Source: Bacillota bacterium (GTDB lineage Bacteria > Bacillota_A > Clostridia > Peptostreptococcales > Anaerovoracaceae). Taken from it: 11,916 nucleotides of DNA. Positions 1 to 11,916 of the stretch are shown in pieces (position 1 is the stretch's first letter; the number at the start of each line of letters is the position of its first letter). Below the pieces are notes generated by a model. It saw only the letters and a program-made list of their open reading frames with translations, was not told the origin of the DNA and made no database searches. The translations under genes and the position numbers were made by a program. The DNA is taken from positions 1 through 11,916 of the forward strand of contig JAFTHD010000194.1 of assembly GCA_017457585.1 (NCBI GenBank), written 5' to 3'.

Positions 1-272
1 AGTGCTCCGAAAGGACATTCTTCCACGCACTCCCCGCAGGCTATGCACCTCATCCGATCGATCAGTATTCTCTCCTGCTTTCTATCCGTAACCATTGCTC
101 CGGAAGGACATCTCCTCATACAGAGTTCACAGAGAGTACACTTCTCCTCATCTATTCCCACTCCGCCTCTTGAAGTGTCGGGAAGTCTCAGTCCGCCCCT
201 GGGGTAACTGCTCGTTGGCGGCACCTTAAAGAGCGTTCTGACCAAATCTTTGCCTATCTTCATAAGACTCAT
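1..272 (-). CDS. Ferredoxin-type 2x[4Fe-4S] subunit of an Ech/Ehr-like membrane complex (EchF/NuoI-like), partial at the left edge
   Basis: The first 90 residues are visible; the C-terminus lies outside the window. Two complete CxxCxxCxxxCP motifs are seen (C45, C48, C51, C55 and C76, C79, C82, C86), each of which would bind one [4Fe-4S] cluster together with the last cysteine of its partner motif. The N-terminal part, with a basic stretch and then PPTSSYP before the first motif, has the layout of EchF/HycF/NuoI subunits, which sit on the membrane arm and pass electrons from soluble ferredoxin to the small subunit. The ATG at 272 is preferred over the in-frame ATG at 263, because AAAGGTAGG lies about six bases before it. 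It starts only 7 bp after the stop of the large-subunit gene, so the two are surely cotranscribed. The cofactor role is secure; the electron donor is inferred. Confidence 0.88.
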   Translation of the reverse strand, partial: MSLMKIGKDLVRTLFKVPPTSSYPRGGLRLPDTSRGGVGIDEEKCTLCELCMRRCPSGAMVTDRKQERILIDRMRCIACGECVEECPFGA

Positions 273-279
273 TTGTGAC

Positions 280-1266
280 CTACCTTTCTCTGAGACAGTC
301 GTCAATTCCCAGTGTGAGCCTTACAAGCGCCTCGCTTTCGGGAGGACAGTTCTCAATTCTATACATGACTTTCTCATTTGACTCCGAGGCAGTCCTTATG
401 CCCACATCCTCAAGGTATGCAGAATTTCTTCCCCTTATATAATATGTTTCCATGCCGTCTGCCTGCTCTATCCTGGTTATCCATTCTCCGTCCACTGCAG
501 GCTGCACTTCAGCTTTTGTACTTCCCTCCGGAATTGAACCGGCCGCACTCATCACCAGTTTCCCCGACTGGATGATCTCCCTCGCTTTAACGAGACATCT
601 TCCATAGCAATCGCAGGAGTATTCTACGACGGGCTCATACCCCAAAGTTCTGTATGCTCCGTATTCTCCCAGATCCCTTCTGTCAACTGCAAACCCTGAA
701 CCTTTTGCGGCGGGGCCCGTGACGCCGGAACCCTGAGCGGCTTCCTTCGATATGAAGCCTATGCCCTTTAACCTTCTCGAAACAGTCTTCTCTCCTGAGA
801 ATGTATCCAATATGGCTTCAGCCTTCTGAATAATCACCTTGACTTCATCCATCGTCTCATCCAGAATCCCTTTGTTCAAATCCCTTTTCACTCCCCCCGG
901 AACGCACATGGAAAGGAACATTCTGTTTCCCGTAAGATCATCCAGTATTTCCAGCACCTTTTCCCGCTCGGTCCAGCATCGCATCGAAAGATTCTCGTAT
1001 CTCATATGTTCCGCTACCGCTGCAAGTCTCAGGAGATTTTCCTGCATGAGCGAAAGCTCCATCAGAATTGTCCTTATATATTGAGCCTTTTCGGGAACTA
1101 TGATACCTCCCGCACCTTCTATCGCAAGGCAGAATGCAAGACTGTTACCGAATCCTCCCGTCCCGTACAATCTTTCGGCGGCATATACCAGTTGTCTGTA
1201 ATCCAAGCTCTCTGCAAGCTTACGGAACCTGGCAGAATACCTGGTAGTTTCAAACATTCTACTCAT
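280..1266 (-). CDS. [NiFe]-hydrogenase/NuoD-like large subunit lacking most Ni-Fe ligands (EchE/Ehr-type), 328 aa
   Basis: The protein aligns by eye along its length with EchE/HycE/NuoD large subunits: a segment ending LAFC (residues 43-46) followed by an AIE..G.IVPEKAQYIRTI stretch, the KGIGFISKEAA..GVTGP region (167-184), and the CDCYGR motif (218-223). In true group 4 hydrogenases the first segment carries CGIC and the C-terminus DPCxxC; these four cysteines bind Ni-Fe. Here the corresponding residues are Y34, G37, C324 and E327, so only one ligand remains and no normal Ni-Fe centre can form. The protein also begins at the EKLAEKRDY-like helix, about 30 residues later than the family, so the GPxHP-type start is absent. 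The ATG at 1266 has an AGGAGG about seven bases upstream and overlaps the small-subunit gene by 8 bp. C-terminal maturation-peptide sequence is absent. Best match is the Ehr class; the reaction is unknown. Confidence 0.88.
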   Translation of the reverse strand: MSRMFETTRYSARFRKLAESLDYRQLVYAAERLYGTGGFGNSLAFCLAIEGAGGIIVPEKAQYIRTILMELSLMQENLLRLAAVAEHMRYENLSMRCWTEREKVLEILDDLTGNRMFLSMCVPGGVKRDLNKGILDETMDEVKVIIQKAEAILDTFSGEKTVSRRLKGIGFISKEAAQGSGVTGPAAKGSGFAVDRRDLGEYGAYRTLGYEPVVEYSCDCYGRCLVKAREIIQSGKLVMSAAGSIPEGSTKAEVQPAVDGEWITRIEQADGMETYYIRGRNSAYLEDVGIRTASESNEKVMYRIENCPPESEALVRLTLGIDDCLRER

Positions 1267-1756
1267 CTGCGGCCTCCTCTTCCTGCATCCTTGCCAAATT
1301 CATCTCTAATGTCCCTGCGTCCTCGTCTCTCGCCTTTATCAGCGCATCTATCAGCGCTTCCGGTCTTGAGGCACAGCCGGATACATAGACATCAACAGGA
1401 ATCATGCTGTCTATCCCTGAAACGACTCCGCTCAGATTCCCGAACATACTGCCTGTACATGCACATGAACCGGCAGCTACCACCTTGCTCCCTTCCGGAA
1501 GCTGCCTGTATATCCCTGTAAGCTGACGTCTGCAGGCTTTGTCTATCAGACCGGTTACAAGAAGTATATCAGCATAAGCAGGATTTCCCGTATTTCTGAA
1601 GCCAAGCCTTTCGATGTCCCAGGCAGGCGAAAAACATGCCATGTACTCTGCGTTACAACCGCTGCACCCATCACCGTCAAAGTGGAATACCCAGCATGAA
1701 TCAACTTTTATGTGCTTAAGGACAGGAGCCCCGCTTTTTTTATTTTTCTTAGCCAT
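1259..1756 (-). CDS. [4Fe-4S] small subunit of hydrogenase/complex I type (EchC/NuoB-like), 165 aa
   Basis: This is a complete NuoB/EchC/HycG-type small subunit. The proximal [4Fe-4S] ligands are all present: C31 and C34 in the CSGCNAE motif, C98 in GSCAC, and C128 in SGCASRPEA, where the family usually has GCPPRPEA. Residues 60-69 (AYADILLVTG) form the typical Rossmann-like core strand. The subunit would receive electrons from the ferredoxin subunit and hand them to the cavity at the interface with the large subunit. The first residues are lysine-rich and soluble, with no Tat signal, which is normal for cytoplasm-facing group 4 enzymes. The start ATG lies 12 bp after the NuoH-like stop, with AGGGGTG upstream. 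The acidic tail (residues 144-165) ends in the overlap with the large-subunit gene, and no NuoC/EchD-like gene separates them. Confidence 0.9.
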   Translation of the reverse strand: MAKKNKKSGAPVLKHIKVDSCWVFHFDGDGCSGCNAEYMACFSPAWDIERLGFRNTGNPAYADILLVTGLIDKACRRQLTGIYRQLPEGSKVVAAGSCACTGSMFGNLSGVVSGIDSMIPVDVYVSGCASRPEALIDALIKARDEDAGTLEMNLARMQEEEAADE

Positions 1757-1768
1757 ATTTCACCCCTG

Positions 1769-2635
1769 TCAAATTACAATATAAAGTACCGTCAAATTAA
1801 TTGCGCCAATGATAAACGCAGCAATCCACGAGGCCTTAAATGCTCTCTTGCTGTTATCGTGAGGTGCTATGTTTTCTATTACGCCCTGAAGCACTGCAGT
1901 GGCTACGCATACAGCCACTCCGACAGCCATCATCAAAATGGTTCCATCCGCAAAAAATGCATATATGATTCCATAGAGGGTTACCTTCTCATACCAGGAA
2001 CCGATCTCGCTGTATGCGGCATCTTTTCTGCTGAATGCATCCGCAATGCTGCTCATATCCTTCTGATACATGGTGTGCGGCATCAAGTATTCAAATCCGG
2101 TTCGGCGAAGCCTGGAGCAAGCTATGAATATGAACCCGGCAAACAGTCCGATCATTGGAAGGAAAGCAACAGGCCCGGATGAAGTCAGCTCCATTGCATC
2201 AAAACTTCCGCAGAACACATAAAACCCGATCGCTGTCATCATCATCATGGGTGCTGCCGCAACCATCTCCATGACGAGCCTGTCCGCGCCTATCTTTGAA
2301 TAGTACGTGCCATAGGCATTCGCCGCAAGCACGAGAAATATAACTCCAAGTCCCAGACATGCTATGGTCATGAGCAAATCAATTCCTGCGACGAACAGAC
2401 TTCCCGAAACAGCATAGAAAAACAGGCTTACTTTAATATAATAGCTCTGTATACCGCCCTTCTCACCGCTGCTCTTATTCAGAAGCGCTATCACATCCGA
2501 TATTGGTCTCGTTATATCTCTTCCTTCTCTGCCCTGAACTCTTGCAGAGGCCTTCTCTGTGATTCCTGTCAGAATACCGCCGGCAAGTGGTGCAAACACG
2601 AGGAATGCCAGCACTGATATTATGATTCTTACCAT
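1769..2635 (-). CDS. NuoH/EchB-like membrane subunit, 288 aa
   Basis: A polytopic membrane protein of about eight helices. The signature RVQGREG at 32-38, followed by a TRP..D segment, matches the RmQGRxGPp..QP.yDv motif at the start of NuoH/EchB/HycD. The later SEIGSWYEKVTLYG (209-222) matches the IEIaHWYE motif of EchB. This subunit anchors the small and large subunits to the membrane and carries the acidic path thought to link redox change to ion movement. Several acidic family positions look changed: the usual YEP/AEP is AAP here (A127, A128, P129), and the HQE region is YQKD (190-193). E123 nearby might substitute. The start at 2635 overlaps the antiporter-like gene by 7 bp, with GGAGG nine bases before it. 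Membership in the family is clear; the consequence of the changes is inference. Confidence 0.88.
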   Translation of the reverse strand: MVRIIISVLAFLVFAPLAGGILTGITEKASARVQGREGRDITRPISDVIALLNKSSGEKGGIQSYYIKVSLFFYAVSGSLFVAGIDLLMTIACLGLGVIFLVLAANAYGTYYSKIGADRLVMEMVAAAPMMMMTAIGFYVFCGSFDAMELTSSGPVAFLPMIGLFAGFIFIACSRLRRTGFEYLMPHTMYQKDMSSIADAFSRKDAAYSEIGSWYEKVTLYGIIYAFFADGTILMMAVGVAVCVATAVLQGVIENIAPHDNSKRAFKASWIAAFIIGAINLTVLYIVI

Positions 2636-4338
2636 TGCAGCACACCTCCCAGGAGTTCACTAAGGTTGAGTATAATAAATCCAAGACACATAACAATCAC
2701 GGCTATCGCAACGATGCTGCATATGATCTGCGCCCTTATGGTCGATTTGCTCTTTCTCAAAATTTCTCTCGTTCCACCCACTTCTTTGTTTCTATCTGAC
2801 TGTCTGCTTTCATCCCGCTGGACCCCTTTGTACATAGGGTATGCTGCAAGTGCAACTGCCGCTGCAATAACAGCTGAGTCCATTATATTATCCGTCAGGT
2901 TTGCCGCCGCAGACATTCCGCCAAACAGCTCGCCCATATAAGGTACTACCATATACCTTGAAAGAAACGGCAATCCTAAGATCAGCAGAATCAAAAGCCA
3001 TGCGTTGGCCTTAAAAGGATTCATCTCCTTCAGGTTGATACCCTCTATTCCTTCGCTTACAGCTTCACCAATCATTGTTCCCAGCCATCTGGTCCAGTAA
3101 AGTATCGCTATTGCACCGCTGAAGCAAAGGATCATAGCGAGAATGATGTTCCCGGTGTCGACTATAGAACCGAGAGACTCCCTCTGGAGAAGTACTATTG
3201 CAAAAGGCGCTGCCATCATGACGATTACACCCATTACCAGATCTGTTCTCAGTCTCCCCTGCTCCGTTCCTGCCAGAAGAAGCGGCTTTGCCACGCTGTG
3301 GAATATAAGCAGGATGATAGCTGCCCAGACTGCCTCTGAATTTCCAATACCGGCGCACATGATTACCAGTCCCATGATGGAACTGGTCGAGTCTGCCAGC
3401 ATCTTCCTCGAGTTGATTTCGGTAATTGCGTTCAGCGACGATATGAAGAATGTAACTCCGCCGATTATGATGGCCATGAGTCCTGCAAAGTTTGATACGC
3501 CCATGGCCGGTGCCATCTTAATCACAAGCACCGCGCCGCTGTTGACGAGCGTTACCGCCTGTATTATCGAACCTGCACCTGCACTGACCTTGTATTCGTG
3601 GGAAAACCACCTTTGAAAAGGTATCTGCATAGATCTCATCATACCTGCAAGAACCATGAATATACATGACATTGCAATCATGTCGGCATATACAGTATCA
3701 ATCAGGTTCAGCGTTGTAATATCCACCGTATCAAATACGAGTCCTGAAACACTTATTCCCACGCAGAAGCTTACACCTGCAAAAGAATTGACTGCGAGAA
3801 GCTTTGCAGCGCAATCGGCAGCTCCTGCTCTATCAGTTTTTACAAGCCTGTAGGAGCAGTATGTAAGTATCGTCCAAAACATGAACATCCACAGAAGGTC
3901 GTCCGACAGTGCCATCCCGCATACAGCAAGTATTGATACGATATGGTGTATGCTTCCGCCTGTCCTCCAGCAAACGATCGCACCCATGACACATGTAACG
4001 AGGCATATTATTACCGCGAACCAGTCAAGGTCCAGGGTCGCTGCACCCTCCAAGCCGCTTCCTACATAATAGTCAAAGCAAACAAGGCCTGCTATCTGCA
4101 GAAGCACTGCCGCCGCAGACACAAAGCCCTTTTCTCTGAAAGCAGATATGAGCATCATAACCCCTGCCGCAACCGTTATTCCGGCGATCGTCCAGAAGCT
4201 GATATCATCATTCAGCGTGATGACCATATTGCCATATATTCCGTGAAATACAGCAAAACCCACCGATGCCAGCGCAATTAATCCGGCCAGTGGCTTTGCG
4301 TATGCCTTTTTCATTTCCATAGAGTTAACGCTCTCCAT
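2629..4338 (-). CDS. Antiporter-like proton/ion channel subunit (NuoL/MrpD/EchA-like), 569 aa
   Basis: A large membrane protein of about 14-16 helices belonging to the proton_antipo_M family. Recognisable parts are the MFMFWTILTYCSYRLV helix (TM5 region, 151-166), MRSMQIPFQRWFSHEYK (234-250, the gKSaQxPfhxWLPdAM motif), RKMLADSTSS (311-320, the broken helix region with the LAYSTxS motif) and FHSVAKPLLLAG (346-357), whose K351 matches the conserved TM12 lysine. The nearly universal TM5 glutamate (FWE) is T156, the TM7 lysine appears as R235, and the usual HAATMVKAG stretch is QAVTLVNSG (260-268). A charged loop (504-535) and one last helix end the protein, much shorter than the NuoL lateral helix. 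Start at 4338 has GGAGG six bases upstream. First gene of the membrane cluster, 57 bp after recR. Confidence 0.88.
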   Translation of the reverse strand: MESVNSMEMKKAYAKPLAGLIALASVGFAVFHGIYGNMVITLNDDISFWTIAGITVAAGVMMLISAFREKGFVSAAAVLLQIAGLVCFDYYVGSGLEGAATLDLDWFAVIICLVTCVMGAIVCWRTGGSIHHIVSILAVCGMALSDDLLWMFMFWTILTYCSYRLVKTDRAGAADCAAKLLAVNSFAGVSFCVGISVSGLVFDTVDITTLNLIDTVYADMIAMSCIFMVLAGMMRSMQIPFQRWFSHEYKVSAGAGSIIQAVTLVNSGAVLVIKMAPAMGVSNFAGLMAIIIGGVTFFISSLNAITEINSRKMLADSTSSIMGLVIMCAGIGNSEAVWAAIILLIFHSVAKPLLLAGTEQGRLRTDLVMGVIVMMAAPFAIVLLQRESLGSIVDTGNIILAMILCFSGAIAILYWTRWLGTMIGEAVSEGIEGINLKEMNPFKANAWLLILLILGLPFLSRYMVVPYMGELFGGMSAAANLTDNIMDSAVIAAAVALAAYPMYKGVQRDESRQSDRNKEVGGTREILRKSKSTIRAQIICSIVAIAVIVMCLGFIILNLSELLGGVLQW

Positions 4339-4348
4339 TACTGTCCTC

Positions 4349-4367
4349 CCGCACCTTACCGGTGCGA
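4349..4367 (-). other. Small hairpin in the leader before the antiporter-like gene
   Basis: The 57 bp between recR and the membrane cluster holds one inverted repeat: CGCACC, a 5-base loop, then GGTGCG on the minus strand. It lies directly before the GGGAGG ribosome binding site of the gene starting at 4338. No T-run follows, so it is not a classical terminator. It could slow read-through, stabilise the downstream mRNA end, or be accidental. No convincing promoter is visible in this gap. Confidence 0.4.
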
Positions 4368-4395
4368 TGTAATATTCCCTCAGATGTCAGCGTTC

Positions 4396-4995
4396 CTATA
4401 ATTGTCTTCTTCCTTCCACTGCCTTGAGCAGCGTAACTTCATCAGCGTATTCCAAATCACCGCCAACAGGAATACCGTGAGCAATTCTTGAAACCTTTAT
4501 ACCGGAAGGCTTAATAAGTCTCGCGATGTACATTGCAGTGGCTTCCCCTTCTATGGTCGGATTTGTTGCTATGATGAGCTCCTGTACCTCCTCATCCTGC
4601 AGCCTTGTTATCAGGCTCTTGAGATTGATATCCTCAGGGCCGATCCCGTCCATGGGCGATATGGTTCCTCCAAGAACATGATATCTGCCTCTGTACTCTC
4701 GTATCTTTTCCATTGCGACCACGTCACGCGGACTTTCAACTACGCATATTACGCTTCTGTCTCTTTCATCGTCTGTGCATATGGCGCATGGATCAACATC
4801 CGTCAGATTGCCGCAAACAGAGCAGTACTTCATGGTCTCCTTCGCCTCTCTTATGGCATCTGACAGCCTAAATGCATCCTTGTCCTCCATGGACAGGATG
4901 TGAAAGGCGAGTCTCTGTGCCGTCTTACCGCCAACACCGGGAAGTCTGGACAACTCATTTATCAGTCTGTTTAACGGTTTAGGGTACTGCCTCAT
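4396..4995 (-). CDS. recR: Recombination mediator protein RecR, 199 aa
   Basis: RecR helps load RecA at gaps together with RecF and RecO in recombinational repair. The sequence shows all family parts at the usual length of about 200 residues: the N-terminal helix-hairpin-helix [14 protein letters not shown] (18-31), a four-cysteine zinc finger (C58, C61, C70, C73), the Toprim domain beginning [15 protein letters not shown] (82-96), and the C-terminal [14 protein letters not shown] stretch (141-154). It starts 3 bp after the ybaB stop, and its ribosome binding site is weak (a GGGG inside the end of ybaB), which suggests translational coupling to ybaB. This is the third gene of the dnaX-ybaB-recR operon found widely in bacteria. 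Nothing unusual is seen in it. Confidence 0.97.
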
Positions 4996-4998
4996 CGT

Positions 4999-5352
4999 TT
5001 AAAGCCCCGGTATGCCAAGTGCCGATGTGAACTTGCCCATCTCGTTCTGAGTTATTTGTTCCATCTGTCTCAGAGCTTCATTTGCAGCAACGAGAATGAG
5101 ATCCTGAAGCATTTCAACGTCATCAGGATCAACCACTTCCGGTTTGATAACGATGTCTTTGATCTCCTTAGCACCGCTGACTGTCACAGTAACTGCACCG
5201 CCGCCGGAGGAAGCGCTCGTCTCCATCTCGTTTATCTGAGCCTGCACTTCTTCCATCTGCTTCTGTACGGCCTGCATCTGTGCCATCTGCTTCTGCATGT
5301 TTCCGCCGCCGCCTGTCTTTGGCCTTTTACCGGCTCTCATTCCTTTTCCCAT
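4999..5352 (-). CDS. ybaB: YbaB/EbfC family nucleoid-associated protein, 117 aa
   Basis: A small DNA-binding protein of the YbaB/EbfC family, which forms dimers with a tweezer shape and binds DNA without strong sequence preference. The glutamine- and methionine-rich helix around residues 19-45 (MQKQMAQMQAVQKQM and following), the GGGAVTVTVSGAKEIKDIVI strand region, and the DPDDVEMLQDLILVAANEA helix are all typical. The extreme N-terminus is basic and glycine-rich (first 18 residues), a common variable tail in this family. The ATG at 5352 has GGAGG six bases upstream. It lies 22 bp after dnaX and 3 bp before recR, in the conserved order. Confident family call; the in-cell role of the protein in this lineage is only known by homology. 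Confidence 0.96.
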   Translation of the reverse strand: MGKGMRAGKRPKTGGGGNMQKQMAQMQAVQKQMEEVQAQINEMETSASSGGGAVTVTVSGAKEIKDIVIKPEVVDPDDVEMLQDLILVAANEALRQMEQITQNEMGKFTSALGIPGL

Positions 5353-5374
5353 TTTTTCCTCCCATATTCGAAAA

Positions 5375-7030
5375 TTATTCTATTTCAACGGGTATGCCGA
5401 GAATCTCGCTTGCCTTCGCTGCCGTTTCCTCAGCAGTTGTTCCTTTTCTCTTTGCCTCTGCCGAGTCCGCGGACAAAATTTTCATGTGCCTTCTCGCCCC
5501 GTCCGTATGCTCCGCTACAAGTCGTTCTATCATATCCCTGTTGTTTTCAGCCATTCTCTTCTGAAAGCTTCTGTTTACTTTCAGGGTGAACTGCCCGTCT
5601 TCTATGCTCACAATGTGCCCGTCTGTAGCAAGTACATAGAAGCTTCCTTTGCCTGCCTCAGCATCGTCAAAAACCGCCTTCCAGACAGCTTCACAGTCAA
5701 AGCCTGTTTCCTGCCTGCTGCTTTCTGCTCCCGTGCCGGAAGCGCCAGCGCCTTCGCTGCTTTGCTCCGCATCTGGCGTCCCGCTCGTCTCTTCCCGTTC
5801 TGGTAATTCAGACTCCGGGAAGTTCTGGTGCTCTTCAGGCTCGCTGCCTGCGCCGCTACTTTGCACCGGTGCCTGCTTTCGCGTATTTGGTATCGCTTGT
5901 ACAGCACTTTGCCGCTTCTGCGCCGGAATCCTGGACTGCGGCTGCTCTCCCACGCCTTCCGAAAGCTTGACGATTGCAAGTTCAAGGAGTATCCTCGGCT
6001 GCACCGACCTTCTCGCTTCGCTGTGGGTTCTGCTAAGTTCGAGCAACGCTTCATTTATATCTGCCAGTTCAAGCGCCTCCGACTGATGTCTTATGCGATC
6101 TATATTCTCGGCAGACATGTTAATCACATCCTGTGGGTTTCTGATGAACCTGGTCATAAGCAGGTTTCGGTAGTGATTGATCCATCCGCTTAGAAACTGT
6201 CTTACGTCCTTGCCGTCTTCCAGAATCTCAGCAAGGAGCATGAGTGCCTCCGCCGTCTTTCTGCGCCTTACGTGCTCCGTAATCTCAATGAAGGTTTCCT
6301 CACCTGATGCTCCGAGAAAATCGAGCACGTCCTCCGCATGAACTGTAAGATCGCCACCTGCAATACACTGATCCAATATACTGAGCCCGTCTCTTACAGA
6401 GCCGTCCGCATTGGCTGCGATGATCCTCAGGGCATCCTCAGATACGTTGATTCCCTTCTTTTTGCAGATTTCATCCATTCCGCGAATCAGGGCAGCTTCC
6501 GGAACTCTCTTAAAGTCCAGCCTCATACATCTGGACAGGATTGTAGCAGGAAGTTTGCCCGGCTCTGTGGTCGCAAGTATGAACGTAACATATTCCGGGG
6601 GCTCCTCTAAGGTTTTCAGGAGCGCGTTAAATGCTCCCGTGGAAAGCATGTGCACTTCATCGATGATATATACTTTTTTTCTGCCTGCGGCAGGGGGATA
6701 CTTGACGCTCTCACGCAGCTCCCTTATGTTGTCAACGCTGTTGTTCGAGGCCGCGTCGATCTCGATTACATCCAAAAAAGTGCCGTTCTTTATTGACTGA
6801 CAGGCAGGACAGACTCCGCACGGCCGGTCACCTTCACCCGTGCAGTTGAGGCCCTTTGCAAGAAGCCTTGCCGTCGTTGTTTTGCCCGTACCTCTCGTAC
6901 CGCAAAACAGATAGGCGTGACTTGTGCTGTCCGTGCTGATCTGGTTCTTCAGTATTCGTACTATGTGCTCCTGACCCAGCATTTCACTGAACACTTCGGG
7001 TCTATATTCTCTGTAGAGAGCTCTGTACAT
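5375..7030 (-). CDS. dnaX: DNA polymerase III subunit gamma/tau, 551 aa
   Basis: DnaX is the ATPase of the clamp loader of DNA polymerase III. The AAA+ domain is intact: Walker A GTRGTGKTTT (44-53), the zinc-binding cysteines C63, C71, C74 and C77, the DAASNNSVDNIRE motif (92-104), Walker B IIDEVH (122-127) and the SRC motif (166-168). Domain III runs to about residue 360. A low-complexity linker rich in Gln, Glu, Ser and Gly (about 362-443) leads to a C-terminal tau-type domain (about 444-551). The start is the ATG at 7030, giving MYRALYREYRPEVF, preceded by GGAGG with five bases between. Starts further upstream would run through the SRP RNA and are rejected. It follows the SRP RNA by 18 bp, as in B. 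subtilis. No convincing frameshift site for a separate gamma form is seen. Confidence 0.96.
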   Translation of the reverse strand: MYRALYREYRPEVFSEMLGQEHIVRILKNQISTDSTSHAYLFCGTRGTGKTTTARLLAKGLNCTGEGDRPCGVCPACQSIKNGTFLDVIEIDAASNNSVDNIRELRESVKYPPAAGRKKVYIIDEVHMLSTGAFNALLKTLEEPPEYVTFILATTEPGKLPATILSRCMRLDFKRVPEAALIRGMDEICKKKGINVSEDALRIIAANADGSVRDGLSILDQCIAGGDLTVHAEDVLDFLGASGEETFIEITEHVRRRKTAEALMLLAEILEDGKDVRQFLSGWINHYRNLLMTRFIRNPQDVINMSAENIDRIRHQSEALELADINEALLELSRTHSEARRSVQPRILLELAIVKLSEGVGEQPQSRIPAQKRQSAVQAIPNTRKQAPVQSSGAGSEPEEHQNFPESELPEREETSGTPDAEQSSEGAGASGTGAESSRQETGFDCEAVWKAVFDDAEAGKGSFYVLATDGHIVSIEDGQFTLKVNRSFQKRMAENNRDMIERLVAEHTDGARRHMKILSADSAEAKRKGTTAEETAAKASEILGIPVEIE

Positions 7031-7048
7031 CCGTTCCTCCATATAAAA

Positions 7049-7208
7049 TTCGCCCTTTGCAAGCCCCACATGCGTTGGAGAAGGCTGATCTGCGGCACAT
7101 AAGAGCTTCCGCTTATTGCTGCTTCCTTCCGGACCTGACAAGGTTCACGGTGTCCTATTGCGCAGGACCCAAACCATGCATGCAGAGCTTGCAAAGGGCA
7201 AACTCATA
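7049..7208 (-). ncRNA. ffs: Signal recognition particle RNA (4.5S/scRNA), short form without Alu domain
   Basis: The minus strand contains the invariant SRP domain IV core GTCAGGTCCGGAAGGAAGCAG (opposite 7119-7139) with its GGAA tetraloop and the two bulged sides that bind Ffh. The preceding TTTGGGTCCTGCGCAA and the following TTATGTGCCGCAG match the B. subtilis scRNA S domain closely. The ends are closed by a perfect 13 bp helix, GCCCTTTGCAAGC (7187-7199) with GCTTGCAAAGGGC (7052-7064), extended by three pairs to 7049 and 7202. A second helix, TGCATGC with GCATGTG, lies inside it. No 5' Alu-like portion is present, so the RNA is about 150-160 nt rather than the 270 nt Bacillus form. The 5' end is placed from the promoter, the 3' end from the run TTTT at 7045-7048. 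Ends are approximate. Confidence 0.93.
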
Positions 7209-7215
7209 CCACACA

Positions 7216-7244
7216 ATTATAGTCTCATGTATCCTCTCAGTCAA
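7216..7244 (-). promoter_or_regulatory. Sigma-A promoter of the SRP RNA (and probably dnaX-ybaB-recR)
   Basis: On the minus strand a TTGACT -35 box (7239-7244) and a perfect TATAAT -10 box (7216-7221) are separated by exactly 17 bp, which is near consensus for the vegetative sigma factor. The start of transcription would fall around 7207-7209, immediately before the SRP RNA closing helix. Such strength fits a stable RNA gene. As only 18 bp lie between the RNA and dnaX, read-through from this promoter is the likeliest source of dnaX mRNA. Confidence 0.88.
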
Positions 7245-7284
7245 GAACTGATGTGTGCCTAAATCAATAATATCTGCAAAGGCT

Positions 7285-7293
7285 ATTATATCA
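7285..7293 (-). promoter_or_regulatory. Possible second, extended -10 promoter upstream of the SRP RNA
   Basis: The minus strand reads TGATATAAT here, an extended -10 element (TGn plus TATAAT). No -35 box is recognisable 17 bp upstream (GAAGAT). The element lies 32 bp after the HypE-like stop codon. It may be a weak upstream promoter or a chance match in A+T-rich intergenic DNA. The rest of the 7203-7324 gap contains no terminator, tRNA or small gene that I can see. Confidence 0.3.
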
Positions 7294-7324
7294 TATCTAA
7301 GGCTTCCATCTTCTATTTTCTCCT

Positions 7325-8326
7325 CTATTTTTTGCTCAAAGCCACATAAAGTTCATCAGTCCCTGGCGGTTCTACCATTTTTAGGTTTCCTCCGGATTTT
7401 AGCTTTACTCCGAAATCCGCTTCCTTTATGGTTCCAACCTCTGAAATATCTACTCCGGCTTCCGCCATGGCCTTCTTTATTTCGCCCGTCTTATCTTTTG
7501 GCACGATAATCAGCATGGCGCCGCTGGATATGAGCCTTAACGGGTCAATTCCAAAGTGCTCTGACACCTTTCTCGTCTCTTCCCTTATCGGAATATCCGC
7601 TTCAATGATCTCCGCTCCAAGGCCTGCAATCTGGCACATTTCCCAGATGGCACCCAGGATTCCGCCCTCGGTAATATCGTGCATGCCGTGGGTACCTACC
7701 TTGCCGGCAACGACGCCTTCTTTGACCACGCTGACAAGGTCGAGAAAGGATACCGCCCTCTTTAGCTCATCTTCCGTAAGAACGCCCTGCAGCTCCTCCG
7801 CCATATCGCTGGCAATGATGCCCGTGCCTTCGAGACCCACAGCCTTTGTAACCATAATCACGTCGCCCGGTTCTATATCGTTACCCGATTGGGAGGTACC
7901 CGAAAGAGCCTTGCCAATGGCCGTTGACACGATGACCGGCTGATTTACGGCAGGCGTCACTTCCGTATGGCCTCCGATGATCTCCACGCCCACTTCTGCC
8001 GCCGTATCCGCCGCCTGCCCCATGATGGTCTTCACGTCGTCTTCCGTGGTTCCTACGGGGAGCATGACAGCCAGCATGATGCCGAGTGGCTGCACGCCGT
8101 TTGACGCGATGTCATTGCACGTTATATGAATGGACAGCCTGCCTATATCGCTTACGGACGACGTAATCGGATCCGTAGACATGACGCAGTCGTAATCTCC
8201 GTATCCAACGACGGCACAGTCCTCGCCAATTCCCGGTCTTACTTTTACATCATCATTTCTGAAGCTGATTCTTTCAAATATGAGGGACTTCAGCATATCG
8301 CTTTCCAGTTTACCGATGTTGAGCAT
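7325..8326 (-). CDS. AIR synthase-related protein, HypE/ThiL-like, without the C-terminal cysteine, 333 aa
   Basis: The protein has the PurM/HypE/ThiL/SelD fold signature: an acidic ATP-binding element GIGEDCAVV (32-40) and STDPI (50-54), ITCNDIASNGVQP (68-80), a GGHTEVTP loop (118-125), and the second domain with HDITEGGILGAIWEM (216-230) and GIDPLRLISSG (259-269). Databases often label such proteins hydrogenase expression/formation protein HypE. True HypE ends in PRIC, whose cysteine becomes the thiocyanate that supplies CN to the Ni-Fe centre. This protein ends PPGTDELYVALSKK, with no cysteine, and has HDITEGG where HypE has DPTRGG. It therefore probably does a different ATP-dependent reaction, substrate unknown. 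It starts 7 bp after ligA and is likely in the pcrA-ligA transcript. Confidence 0.82.
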   Translation of the reverse strand: MLNIGKLESDMLKSLIFERISFRNDDVKVRPGIGEDCAVVGYGDYDCVMSTDPITSSVSDIGRLSIHITCNDIASNGVQPLGIMLAVMLPVGTTEDDVKTIMGQAADTAAEVGVEIIGGHTEVTPAVNQPVIVSTAIGKALSGTSQSGNDIEPGDVIMVTKAVGLEGTGIIASDMAEELQGVLTEDELKRAVSFLDLVSVVKEGVVAGKVGTHGMHDITEGGILGAIWEMCQIAGLGAEIIEADIPIREETRKVSEHFGIDPLRLISSGAMLIIVPKDKTGEIKKAMAEAGVDISEVGTIKEADFGVKLKSGGNLKMVEPPGTDELYVALSKK

Positions 8327-8333
8327 TTTATCT

Positions 8334-10286
8334 CTATCCTTCCAGCATCCTGAGGAAATCCTCCTCGGTTATAATTGGTATTCCAAGCTCCTTGGCCTTC
8401 TTGTTCTTGCCCGAGCCTGAAGTGATATCGTTGTTTATCAGGTAATCCGTCTTACCCGTGACGCTTCCCGTTGTCTTGCCGCCGGCAGCTTCGATTGCCG
8501 CCTTGACTTCATCTCTGTTTGCGAAATGGTTTACCTTGCCGGTGATTACGAAGGTCTTTCCTTCAAGACTCCCCCCTGACTTTGCCGCAAAACTCTCGTC
8601 GAGGTTCAAGACCTTTTCCAGTTCATCAACCACATCCTTATTCTTCTCATCTGCAAAGAACCTGACGTAGCCTTCTGCCAGCACGGCTCCCACTCCATCG
8701 ATGCTTTCAAGCTCATCACGGGTAAGATTTCTCATCTTTTCCCACTTGTTCTCGCAGTGGGCTGCGATTACCTTTGCGTTCGCCGTTCCTATGCCAGGTA
8801 CGCCCAGGCTGTTCAGAAGCCTGTCCGGCGTCGTATTTGACGCCGCCTTTGCTGCTTCGATGAGATTTTCGTAGGACTTTTCTCCGAAGCCCTCCATCCC
8901 GATGATTCTTTCTTTATATCTTTCGAGTCTGAAAAGGTCTGCCGGCTGGCTCACCATACCCTCGTCCACCAGCTTCTCCAGCGTCGCTTCCGAGAGCCCG
9001 TCAATGTTCATGGCGTTTCTTCCCACAAAGTGTGTGAAGCTCTTGATCCTCTTGGCCGGGCAATCGGGATTGAGACATACGAGGGTTTCCACTCCCGTCT
9101 TATCCTCGAGAACCGTTTCACCGCTGCACACAGGACAACGTTCAGGAATCTCAAAGGCTCCGCTCTTCGTCAGATTCTCCGCAATCTGCGGAATGATCAT
9201 GTTGGCCTTGTACACGGTGATCCTATCGCCTACGCCCAGCTTCAGGCTCCTGAGTATGCTCACATTGTGAACGGAAGCCCTGCTGACCGTCGTTCCCTCA
9301 AGTTCGACCGGCTCAAAAATTGCAATCGGATTGATCAGTCCTGTCCTGGAAGGGCTCCACAGGATTTCCTCCAGGGTCGTCTCCTTCAGTTCGTCTCGCC
9401 ACTTAAAGGCCATAGAGTCTCTCGGAAACTTTGCCGTCCTTCCCAGGGATCTGCCGTATTCTATATCGTCGTAGATGAGAACCAGTCCATCGGAAGGCAG
9501 CGGATAATCGGCAACCTTCTCCGAGTATCTTTTTATCTCATCCTCTATGGTCTCTCCCGTAACCTTCACGTATTCAACCGTTTCAAATCCCAGCGCTGCA
9601 ATTCTCTCAAGCTGCTCATGCCTGTAAGTGGCATCATCCGCTCCTGCCGCAACGGAGAAAGCGTAGAATCTCACGTGCCTTTCTGCCGCTATCCTGTTAT
9701 TTAGCTGGCGCACCGTTCCTGCACAAAGGTTGCGCGGGTTTTTGTACTTAGCGTCCGCATCACCGATCTGTTCGTTGATCTTCTCGAAATCCTGGTAGGT
9801 TATAACGGCTTCCCCTCTGACGACCAATGTATCGCCCGTCGGAATCCTGAGCGGAACGTTGTCAAAGACCTTTGCGTTATCCGTTATGACTTCTCCGATA
9901 ACACCATCTCCCCTGGTAACAGCCTTGGTAAGTTCTCCGCCTTCGTAGGTGAGCACGATGGTGAGACCATCCAGCTTCCATGAAAGCAGGCCTTCTTTAT
10001 CCCCGAGCCAGCTTCTTAAGGCTTCCGGTTCCTTTGTCTTATCCAGGGACAGCATTGGCGACGGGTGCTCTTCCTTTGGCAGGCTGCTTATGACCTTGTA
10101 ACCCACGTTTACGGTAGGACTTCCTGCAAGGACGATTCCAGTCTCCTTTTCCCACTCGGCCAGTTCGTCGTAAAGCTTATCGTATTCCTGATTGGATATG
10201 ATCTCGTTGCTTTCCTGGTAATATACTCTGGCAGCTTCGTTTAAGAGCGCCACCCGCTCTTCCATGCGTTTTCTCGTGATTTCCAT
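8334..10286 (-). CDS. ligA: NAD-dependent DNA ligase LigA, 650 aa
   Basis: LigA seals nicks in replication and repair using NAD+. Seen in order: the Ia NAD-binding region (for example SNQEYDKLYDEL, 31-42), the adenylated lysine K104 in WKLDG, RGDG (125-128), RGEAV (157-161), the OB-fold stretch beginning SPSRTGLINPIA (311-322), the zinc finger C384, C387, C404, C409, four helix-hairpin-helix units (about 425-545), and a C-terminal BRCT domain (573-650). The ATG at 10286 is chosen, because GGGAGG lies six bases upstream; the TTG at 10313 has no such signal. The adenylation-domain motif KFPRDSMAFKW (286-296) replaces the more common aPRWAiAyKf, marking a divergent but apparently functional clostridial branch. 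It lies 57 bp after pcrA in the order known from B. subtilis. Confidence 0.96.
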   Translation of the reverse strand: MEITRKRMEERVALLNEAARVYYQESNEIISNQEYDKLYDELAEWEKETGIVLAGSPTVNVGYKVISSLPKEEHPSPMLSLDKTKEPEALRSWLGDKEGLLSWKLDGLTIVLTYEGGELTKAVTRGDGVIGEVITDNAKVFDNVPLRIPTGDTLVVRGEAVITYQDFEKINEQIGDADAKYKNPRNLCAGTVRQLNNRIAAERHVRFYAFSVAAGADDATYRHEQLERIAALGFETVEYVKVTGETIEDEIKRYSEKVADYPLPSDGLVLIYDDIEYGRSLGRTAKFPRDSMAFKWRDELKETTLEEILWSPSRTGLINPIAIFEPVELEGTTVSRASVHNVSILRSLKLGVGDRITVYKANMIIPQIAENLTKSGAFEIPERCPVCSGETVLEDKTGVETLVCLNPDCPAKRIKSFTHFVGRNAMNIDGLSEATLEKLVDEGMVSQPADLFRLERYKERIIGMEGFGEKSYENLIEAAKAASNTTPDRLLNSLGVPGIGTANAKVIAAHCENKWEKMRNLTRDELESIDGVGAVLAEGYVRFFADEKNKDVVDELEKVLNLDESFAAKSGGSLEGKTFVITGKVNHFANRDEVKAAIEAAGGKTTGSVTGKTDYLINNDITSGSGKNKKAKELGIPIITEEDFLRMLEG

Positions 10287-10343: not shown

Positions 10344-11916
10344 CTACAACTTCTTTAGCGGCGCGAAACCTATGGCAAGCTTCTTTCTCTCTCCGCCAAA
10401 ATCCACAGACACGATCTTTGCATTTGCCTCTACTACGGTTCCCTCTCCGAACTTCGGATGGAGCACCCTGTCTCCCGGAAGGTAATCCGTATCCGCTCCC
10501 GTCGCATTTTTCTTCGTAGCCTGCTTGGCGTATTTCAACCTGTCGTATTCAGCCCACGGCTTCGCAGGCGCTTTGCCCGAAGGCGATCCGTCTCTGAATA
10601 GCGCCTTGTTCTTCTCCGCCTTCTTTTCGTAGATTCCGTCTCCTTCGATGAGCTTTCTGTCGATCTCGCGCATGAACTGACTTTCCCTGGTGAAATCCGT
10701 CTTGCCGTACATGGTTCTGACTTCGGCTCCCGTCATCCACAGCCTTTCCTTGGCTCTCGTTATCCCAACGTAGCAGAGACGCCTTTCTTCTTCGATTCCC
10801 TCCGGCGTATCGAGGGAGCTCCAGCCCGGGAACAGTCCGTCTTCCATGCCCGGCATGAATACGAAAGGAAACTCCAGCCCCTTTGCGCTGTGCATGGTCA
10901 TGAGCACGACTGCGTCCTCATTGGGATCGTGGTTATCGACCTCCGCAAGCAGCGCGACGCTTTCGAGAAACTCCGCAAGGGTGATGTTAGGATTCTCCTT
11001 CTCGTAATCGTATATTACGGACTTGAACTCCATCAGGTTCTCGATCCTTGATTCCGCTTCAATGGTGTTCTGATTCTCAAGAGCCTTCATGTATCCCGAC
11101 CTAACGAGAAGCTGGTCGTAAATATCCGATACGCGCATATTGTCCTTTTCGTTTCCCAGGGTCTCTATGAGCTCTGCGAACTCTCCAATGGCGGCCGCCA
11201 CCTTCTTTGAAAGGGATGATATCACGTCACCGTCCAGAAGCACGTCAAAGAGACCCGTTCCTCTCACCTGTGCCAGCGCGGTCAGCTTTTCCACCGTCTT
11301 GCCGCCGATTCCCCTTTTCGGCTCGTTTATCACGCGAGCGATCGCAAGGGTATCCGCCCTGTTTTGCACAAGTCTCATGTAACACAGGATATCCTTTATC
11401 TCCTTGCGGTCGTAGTACCTGAGACCGCCCAAAACCCTGTACGGAATCTCCCTTCTCGAGAGCTGTTCCTCAAAGGTTCTCGACTGGGCGTTCGTCCTGT
11501 AAAGTATGGCAAAGTCGCTGTACTTCCTGTCTCTCGTCTTAAGCCTGTTGATCTCTGAGGCGATGAAAGCTGCCTCTTCTCTCTCATCTTCCGCCCTTTT
11601 GTATATGATCTTCTTTCCTGCTCCGGCGCTTGTCCAGAGTTTCTTCGCCTTTCTTCCCTTGTTGTTCACAATTACGGAGTGGGCTGCGTCCAGGATATTG
11701 GACGTAGACCGGTAGTTCTGCTCCAGCTTCACCACCTTGGCGTCAGGGAAGTCCTTTTCAAACTCCAAAATGTTTCTAAGATCTGCCCCTCTCCACTGGT
11801 ATATGCACTGATCGTCATCTCCTACCACGCACAGATTACCATGAACAGATGCCAGCATCCTGACCATCTTGTACTGAAGATAGTTGGTATCCTGGTATTC
11901 ATCGACCATGATGTAC
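10344..11916 (-). CDS. pcrA: ATP-dependent 3'-5' DNA helicase PcrA (UvrD family), partial at the right edge
   Basis: The window holds the last 523 or so residues; roughly the first 220 residues, with Walker A, lie outside. Numbered from the methionine at 11909, the visible motifs are Walker B VDEYQDTN (2-9), motif III VVGDDDQCIYQWRGAD (28-43), motif IV LEQNYRST (62-69), the LYRTNAQSRTFEEQL stretch (136-150), motif V MTMHSAKGLEFP (337-348) and motif VI RRLCYVGITRAKERLW (376-391). The C-terminal GDRVLHPKFGEGTVV segment (479-493) is the Tudor-like domain that in PcrA binds RNA polymerase, which favours PcrA over Rep. It unwinds DNA in repair and conflict resolution between replication and transcription. 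The gene has no start here because it crosses the window boundary. LigA follows by 57 bp. Confidence 0.96.
   Translation of the reverse strand, partial: YIMVDEYQDTNYLQYKMVRMLASVHGNLCVVGDDDQCIYQWRGADLRNILEFEKDFPDAKVVKLEQNYRSTSNILDAAHSVIVNNKGRKAKKLWTSAGAGKKIIYKRAEDEREEAAFIASEINRLKTRDRKYSDFAILYRTNAQSRTFEEQLSRREIPYRVLGGLRYYDRKEIKDILCYMRLVQNRADTLAIARVINEPKRGIGGKTVEKLTALAQVRGTGLFDVLLDGDVISSLSKKVAAAIGEFAELIETLGNEKDNMRVSDIYDQLLVRSGYMKALENQNTIEAESRIENLMEFKSVIYDYEKENPNITLAEFLESVALLAEVDNHDPNEDAVVLMTMHSAKGLEFPFVFMPGMEDGLFPGWSSLDTPEGIEEERRLCYVGITRAKERLWMTGAEVRTMYGKTDFTRESQFMREIDRKLIEGDGIYEKKAEKNKALFRDGSPSGKAPAKPWAEYDRLKYAKQATKKNATGADTDYLPGDRVLHPKFGEGTVVEANAKIVSVDFGGERKKLAIGFAPLKKL

Follow-up and report, generated by a model that had tools for sequence, protein, structure and literature searches.

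We analyzed a stretch of 11,916 nucleotides from a Bacillota bacterium (assembly GCA_017457585.1, contig JAFTHD010000194.1), referred to below as the window. Positions 1-4338 of its minus strand carry five open reading frames (ORFs) resembling NuoL, NuoH, NuoB, NuoD, and NuoI of the complex I/group 4 hydrogenase superfamily. Each contains the matching Pfam domain, bearing out the original prediction of a five-gene Ech/complex I-like complex. The genes are as follows:

2629..4338, minus strand: NuoL/EchA-like antiporter subunit, 569 amino acids (aa; about 640 in the Ech forms of relatives), PF00361 Proton_antipo_M (2.3e-25) and alignment with canonical EchA
1769..2635, minus strand: NuoH/EchB-like membrane anchor, 288 aa, PF00146 NADHdh (8.4e-10)
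1259..1756, minus strand: NuoB/EchC-like small subunit, 165 aa, PF01058 Oxidored_q6 (1.1e-21)
280..1266, minus strand: NuoD/EchE-like large subunit, 328 aa, Complex1_49kDa (3.2e-39)
1..305, minus strand: NuoI/EchF-like 2x[4Fe-4S] subunit with Fer4 domains, incomplete at the window edge (ORF 3-305; ATG probably at 270-272)

The genes are as tightly packed as that prediction had described: on remeasurement, L and H overlap by 7 bp and B and D by 8 bp, while 12 bp separate H from B and 7 bp separate D from the probable NuoI ATG. In three relatives (loci L001, L002, and L003), the operon sits after recR and ends with NuoI (176-184 aa), followed by secE-nusG-rplK. Since NuoI closes the operon before secE in all three, the five genes are likely the whole set.

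Using NuoD to search 5.8 billion proteins, we obtained nine clusters at 60-98% identity, here called the family; the next matches, at 36%, were Ech subunits with their ligands. A profile search returned the same nine clusters and then an odd form, P0131, at 39%. Scanning GTDB 220 yielded three loci, the L001, L002, and L003 already mentioned, in genomes G001, G002, and G003. These are metagenome-assembled genomes (MAGs) of 1.3-1.7 Mb; as for all the relatives' genomes, their completeness and purity are unstated. Among 197 relatives, 83 had some large-subunit match and only G001-G003 scored like the family (632-634 bits; next 317), while among 391 genomes drawn from the class, 55 had some match and only G003 did so. 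One query (P0006) against viral contigs found no related locus. We recognized no report of a nickel-free Ech in Clostridia among literature titles and abstracts, a body of text that covers few subscription journals.

The large subunit has lost the ligands of the Ni-Fe center. Where P. furiosus MbhL reads AERMCGIC, the aligned window protein reads AERLYGTG, and the N-terminal CxxC has become YxxG, with both Y34 and G37 present in 9/9 family clusters. The two altered sites are:

1141..1176, minus strand: ERLYGTGGFGNS (residues 31-42) in place of ERICGICSFGHG, with 10 of the 12 residues identical throughout the family
286..297, minus strand: C324 to E327 in place of DPCxxC, E327 in 9/9 family clusters; C324, the first Cys of the C-terminal CxxC and the only one kept, in 7/9, with Ser in the other two

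Neither CGIC nor the C-terminal CxxC occurs in any of the nine clusters. The Ech-type large subunits that we read have CGIC in 38 of 38 cases and the C-terminal CxxC in 37; the exception, L034 (G020), is a canonical Ech large subunit with an unrelated tail instead of DPCxxC, probably through a frameshift or an assembly error. For the window, assembly or sequencing error was ruled out, the ligand loss being common to nine protein clusters. The original prediction had inferred this loss and had named two findings that together would speak against it. One was seen, in that the large subunit groups with active Ech; the other was not, and because the cysteine motifs are absent from all nine close clusters, we consider the loss real and shared.

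The N-terminal GPxHP (GPQHP...EP) region, which corresponds to the β1-β2 loop, is also missing from the window large subunit. An AlphaFold2 model predicts the fold of this subunit with confidence (pLDDT 92.3), and it aligns with known structures only past the loop, for example from residue 45 of T. elongatus NdhH (6nbq); alignment with the bovine 49-kDa subunit (7qsd) begins at residue 81. In Mbh, this loop carries the proton-shuttling Glu21 and is itself the proposed trigger of pumping (PMC11228991); in MBS, it belongs to the three coupling loops connecting the arms (PMC7684303). NuoC/EchD, present in 38/38 Ech loci, was found in 0/3 family loci and not in the window. Elsewhere in the genomes, a search with PF00329 found no NuoC in G002 or G003, and in G001 found it solely on a contig with a canonical Ech, discussed below.

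The iron-sulfur (Fe-S) ligands are retained. In NuoB, the proximal-cluster cysteines (residues 31, 34, 98, and 128) are present in 4/4 family loci and in 43/43 other Ech loci; Cys 31 and Cys 34 have CxxC spacing, and there is no adjacent Cys pair. All eight Fe-S cysteines of NuoI are present in the window, and the full set of twelve noted in the original prediction, four in NuoB and eight in NuoI, is kept in the window, L001, L002, and L003. Full-length family NuoI (L001, L002, and L003) contains 9-10 Cys and has a basic tail: the final 40 residues include 17-19 Lys/Arg in all three copies versus 2-8 in 13 canonical copies (L025-L028, L031, L032, L035-L037, L042, L046, L092, and L094). In these 13, EchF is a polyferredoxin with 19-47 Cys and more [4Fe-4S] sites than the family's two. 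Because canonical L041, L051, and L058 also carry a short two-cluster EchF, the loss of extra ferredoxin domains holds only relative to the listed recR-secE relatives.

Antiporter and channel residues have changed in both membrane subunits. In the list that follows, TM denotes a transmembrane helix and L084 is another altered Ech, described below:

3871..3873, minus strand: NuoL TM5 Glu replaced by Thr156 (family T in 3/4 and N in 1/4; other Ech E in 39/40 aligned, Q in L084)
3541..3561, minus strand: NuoL TM8, LLHSSTMVKAG of Ech replaced by IIQAVTLVNSG (His to Gln260, Lys to Asn266)
3250..3279, minus strand: NuoL, site of the deleted HNIGSRDIEDMDGL (GSRD) stretch of Ech
2255..2257, minus strand: NuoH Ala127 where the YEP motif has its channel Glu (family A in 4/4; other Ech E in 41/42 aligned, Q in L084)
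2021..2095, minus strand: NuoH TM5-6 loop, HQELVxGxxTEF(S/V)G of Ech replaced by YQKDMSSIADAFSRK

HQE and TEFSG of the TM5-6 loop are lost in the family. The TM7 Lys of NuoL is Arg in all four family loci, and the TM12 Lys is Arg in three and Lys in one. The antiporter and NuoH channel residues concerned serve proton transfer. Since these residues, the TM5-6 loop motif, and the β1-β2 loop are lost, canonical proton pumping by the complex is unlikely. Neither these residue changes nor the missing NuoC and β1-β2 loop figured in the original prediction.

The genomic position of the operon points to its origin. On the minus strand it is preceded by pcrA-ligA-AIR (aminoimidazole ribonucleotide) synthase-like gene-SRP (signal recognition particle) RNA-dnaX-ybaB-recR; we assigned the housekeeping names from translations, and they are consistent with matches in the relatives' loci. 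The immediate flank is shared with canonical Ech loci:

4396..4995, minus strand: recR, upstream flank common to the window and canonical Ech loci

Among 37 Ech-type loci in relatives, five have the operon between recR upstream and secE downstream, another 11 have secE after it, and another seven have recR before it; the remaining 14 end at contig edges or sit at other places, several of them next to hyp genes. Where recR is visible (12 loci), at least one ORF, mostly an APC-type transporter, separates it from the operon in 11, L042 being the exception, and several loci have further ORFs ahead of secE. The flanks of one canonical Ech, L042 (G034), match those of the window and L003 gene for gene, in the arrangement ligA-AIRS-dnaX-ybaB-recR-[L H B C D I]-secE-nusG-rplK-rplA. 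Empty sites, with secE following recR directly, occur in G044 (L075, 6256-7441) and G015 (L079, 5748-7034); G044 falls in the same 100/100 clade as the family in a housekeeping-gene tree. Separately, in L089 (G059, 10512-11381), a lone NuoH-like ORF (289 aa, 36 bits) directly follows recR, and no other Ech subunit was matched within 16 kb.

Phylogeny agrees with position. In a tree of four joined subunits, the family is nested within the recR-secE Ech group (99/95), and a constraint uniting the remaining 22 ingroup Ech rows to the exclusion of the family was rejected (approximately unbiased test, p-AU 0.027). A tree of the large subunit joins the family to Ech at 100/100 and places it apart from two Mbx-like rows, L060 and L061; neither tree contained a named Ehr (energy-converting hydrogenase-related) sequence. 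We dropped this tree as sole proof of nesting (p-AU 0.416). Position and phylogeny together show, at the level of sequence, an Ech-type [NiFe] hydrogenase operon altered in place, and indicate that its Ni-Fe loss probably had a separate origin within Ech. As for the two Mbx-like rows themselves, L061 (G121) and L060 (G195) belong to Mbx/Ehr-like operons that encode Mrp-type subunits together with a large subunit that has GPNHP and lacks CxxC; the one in G121 adjoins an rnf-like operon (names assigned by eye).

The genomes of relatives differ in accessory genes. HypD, the only Ni-Fe maturation gene sought, was found in 61/66 genomes with an Ech-type match versus 0/3 family genomes (p=0.001). 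The 66 were chosen by E-value and include G026, which contains L084; ligands were read for 36 plus a few more. A UbiA-type prenyltransferase was found in 0/5 genomes (G001, G002, G003, G026, and G044; control, 14/14), making a quinone an unlikely acceptor. Rnf and [FeFe] hydrogenase are each present in 3/3 family genomes, which gives ferredoxin other users, and, since Rnf can pump on ferredoxin and [FeFe] hydrogenase can make H2, may cover the old roles of Ech. The AIR synthase-like gene of the window (7325-8326, between ligA and dnaX) is HypE/ThiL-like and scores below both the HypE and ThiL cut-offs. It lacks the Cys tail of HypE. The gene was matched in 113/120 relatives, and some of these matches are probably true HypE.

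The operon is still under purifying selection. All frames are open in the four loci. Of 30 gene pairs, 15 had a finite synonymous divergence (dS), and for these the NG86 ratios of nonsynonymous to synonymous divergence (dN/dS) were 0.04-0.21 (about 0.1), a rough figure since dS is saturated in the other half. The claim in the original prediction of intact frames under selection is upheld. Conservation is concentrated around the old ligands, where 21/31 positions are invariant versus 130/328 over the whole large subunit (p=0.0009), and residues 31-42, the former active site, are the best conserved 12-residue stretch of the protein. The family nevertheless evolves faster than canonical Ech at like RecR distance.

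The family is not the only altered Ech in these organisms: a second Ni-free operon occurs in a separate host lineage. In L084 (G026, 2121-9172), recR and a transporter precede an operon in which NuoC and the GPxHP loop are present. Its large subunit reads SGLT for CGIC, and the contig stops before the C-terminal ligands. In the membrane arm, the TM5 Glu is Gln, the TM7 Lys is Arg, the TM8 Lys is Asn, and the Glu of YEP is Gln; the four NuoB cysteines are kept, and the TM5-6 loop retains its TE-G motif. HypD was not found in G026. Compared with G006, the Ech subunits of G026 are 47-50% identical, RecR 92%, and the neighboring transporter 89%; for two other genomes with canonical Ech, the Ech subunits are 87-94% identical to those of G006. 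A host-gene tree places G026 beside G006 (97/75) and rejects union with the family (p-AU 0.0006). In the Ech gene tree, L084 likewise falls next to G006 (84/95), but there a grouping with the family is not rejected (p-AU 0.286). On the question of one loss versus two, transfer could explain both results.

The odd form P0131 (a 440-aa cluster) fuses NuoC to NuoD, reads AGTS where Ech has CGIC, lacks the GPxHP motif, and ends in MDPCRNGLDW. It branches with the family (100/99 without L084, 93/74 with it) and is likely its sister. Among 393 genomes of the order, 84 of which had a match, we found no closer relatives of P0131; the best was 46% identical. In another cluster, P0128 (289 aa), NuoH has YVP for YEP and YGRYQDMV for HHAHQELV with TEFSG kept, perhaps representing a further partly changed Ech. 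One tentative explanation, which we put forward as a possibility well short of an even chance, is that Ech of this clostridial order has repeatedly been turned, at its native locus, into Fe-S membrane complexes that contain no nickel, no longer pump, and carry out a new redox reaction where the Ni-Fe pocket used to be. This would have happened at least twice (in the window's family and in G026), with loss of several of the same channel positions and with P0131-like intermediates. If true, nature would recently have repeated the step from hydrogenases to the Ni-free relatives of complex I.

What might the altered complex do? We propose, with a probability of about two in five, that Ech was remodeled in place into a membrane electron wire that is fed by ferredoxin, contains no nickel, and does not pump. 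Since the Ni-Fe ligands are missing, established chemistry excludes hydrogen, and the complex would no longer handle H2 or pump by the known route. Electrons would enter from a soluble low-potential donor, ferredoxin, travel along both clusters of NuoI and then the proximal cluster of NuoB, and arrive at the remodeled, highly conserved NuoD pocket. From there, they may be delivered to a non-quinone acceptor, either a small molecule or a partner protein, without energy conservation. NuoL and NuoH would serve as the anchor of this membrane-bound electron outlet. Of the readings that remain, we infer that such a ferredoxin-fed, non-conserving outlet would require the fewest assumptions, with a sensor or scaffold as its main rival.

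Several observations weigh against this proposal. G044, in the family's own clade, lives without the operon. G001 also contains a canonical Ech (L024, on the 5.2-kb contig C97), which groups with that of G099 at 100/100 and is probably due to contamination or transfer. The absences of HypD and UbiA may be gaps in MAGs. A composition warning applies to the joined tree, whose stem to the family has 4.94 changes per column; because this stem is so long, most of the change predates the split of the family members. Adding L084 lowers the key fork from 99/95 to 98/77, and the large subunit, taken by itself, does not distinguish a position within Ech from one next to it (p-AU 0.416). The saturation of dS leaves the strength of selection roughly estimated. 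Finally, Arg at TM7 and Lys or Arg at TM12 could still carry protons. As a separate observation on L024, its large subunit has the C terminus TIDPCISCTER, and G001 has no HypD match.

The strongest rival, to which we assign a modest chance, is that the complex is a redox sensor or an assembly or regulatory scaffold, in which the Fe-S chain signals the state of ferredoxin through the large subunit to a partner, with no turnover. Loss of catalytic and pumping residues together, with conservation of the Fe-S ligands and of the large-subunit site, is what a sensor might show, and the polybasic NuoI tail could dock such a partner. Yet the ORF lists of L001, L002, and L003, inspected by eye, contain no regulatory gene between recR and secE, and two large membrane proteins are costly to keep.

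A relict, that is, an unneeded hydrogenase decaying under weak selection, is improbable. Compatible with decay are the empty recR-secE junctions of G044 and G015, the lack of HypD in 3/3 family genomes, and the faster evolution at like RecR distance. Set against these are the open frames in four loci, the dN/dS of about 0.1, the kept Fe-S ligands, and a former active site that is the best conserved part of the large subunit. With the old ligand site conserved above the rest of the protein, the relict reading offered by the original prediction is weakened.

Slightly less probable still is that earlier account's other suggestion, a ferredoxin-driven ion pump with a new acceptor, for which Arg in place of the TM7 Lys and other residues would suffice. 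Intact frames and selection, the two retained membrane subunits, and the basic residues at TM7 (Arg, 4/4) and TM12 (Arg, 3/4; Lys, 1/4) are in its favor, whereas the TM5 Glu, the TM8 His and Lys, the NuoH channel Glu, the TM5-6 loop motif, and the β1-β2 coupling loop are all gone. Kinship with Ehr, which the original prediction had raised, is not supported. The last possibility, that the family belongs to an Ehr/Mbx/Mbs lineage that never had a Ni-Fe center, has the common absence of Ni-Fe ligands in its favor and is very improbable, since position and the joined tree tie the family to Firmicutes Ech, its large subunit stands apart from the two Mbx-like rows, no Mrp-type subunit besides NuoL is present in the window or the three complete operons of relatives, and the CxxC spacing at the NuoB cluster is kept, unlike in MBS.

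Returning to the proposed electron wire, the complex is a hydrogenase by descent, free of Ni-Fe by anatomy, and apparently with its pump switched off as well, and it probably does a new electron-transfer job. One step proposed for the origin of complex I is that a membrane hydrogenase lost its Ni-Fe center. To our knowledge, the well-known cases of such loss date far back, and none of their immediate ancestors survives. Here, the hydrogenase, its changed form, and the empty site share one genomic slot among relatives. Since all forms share one slot, function after nickel loss and the separability of electron transfer from pumping become testable by comparison and by matched-pair expression.

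Among known systems, complex I differs from the family, in which NuoB has no adjacent Cys pair, the β1-β2 loop is missing, and no UbiA-type prenyltransferase was found in the relatives examined. Ehr, in the passages that describe it, resembles the family in its group 4-like operon and in a large subunit without Ni-Fe ligands (PMC6349859); it differs in having Mrp antiporter-like subunits (PMC6349859). The window's family has lost pump residues too. A putative hydrogenase of Methanospirillum and Methanosarcina, described as lacking the Ni-Fe cysteines, is alike in its ligand-less group 4-like large subunit (PMC2686161). In MBS, as passages of its structural account have it, two Ni-Fe cysteines are lost and the Fe-S chain ends, as it would here, at the proximal cluster beside the former Ni-Fe cavity (PMC7684303). 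The same passages state that MBS keeps its pumping modules and three coupling loops and that one proximal-cluster iron is without a Cys ligand, the shortened small-subunit motif leaving three (PMC7684303), while the family has no Mrp part and keeps four Cys with CxxC spacing. The closest counterpart is Ech of Clostridia. The family lacks its NuoC/EchD, Ni-Fe motifs, β1-β2 loop, and channel residues, and has a two-cluster NuoI with a basic tail where EchF of the recR-secE relatives is a polyferredoxin. It shares with Ech the slot after recR and before secE, the gene order, the Fe-S ligands of NuoB and NuoI, and its placement in the trees.

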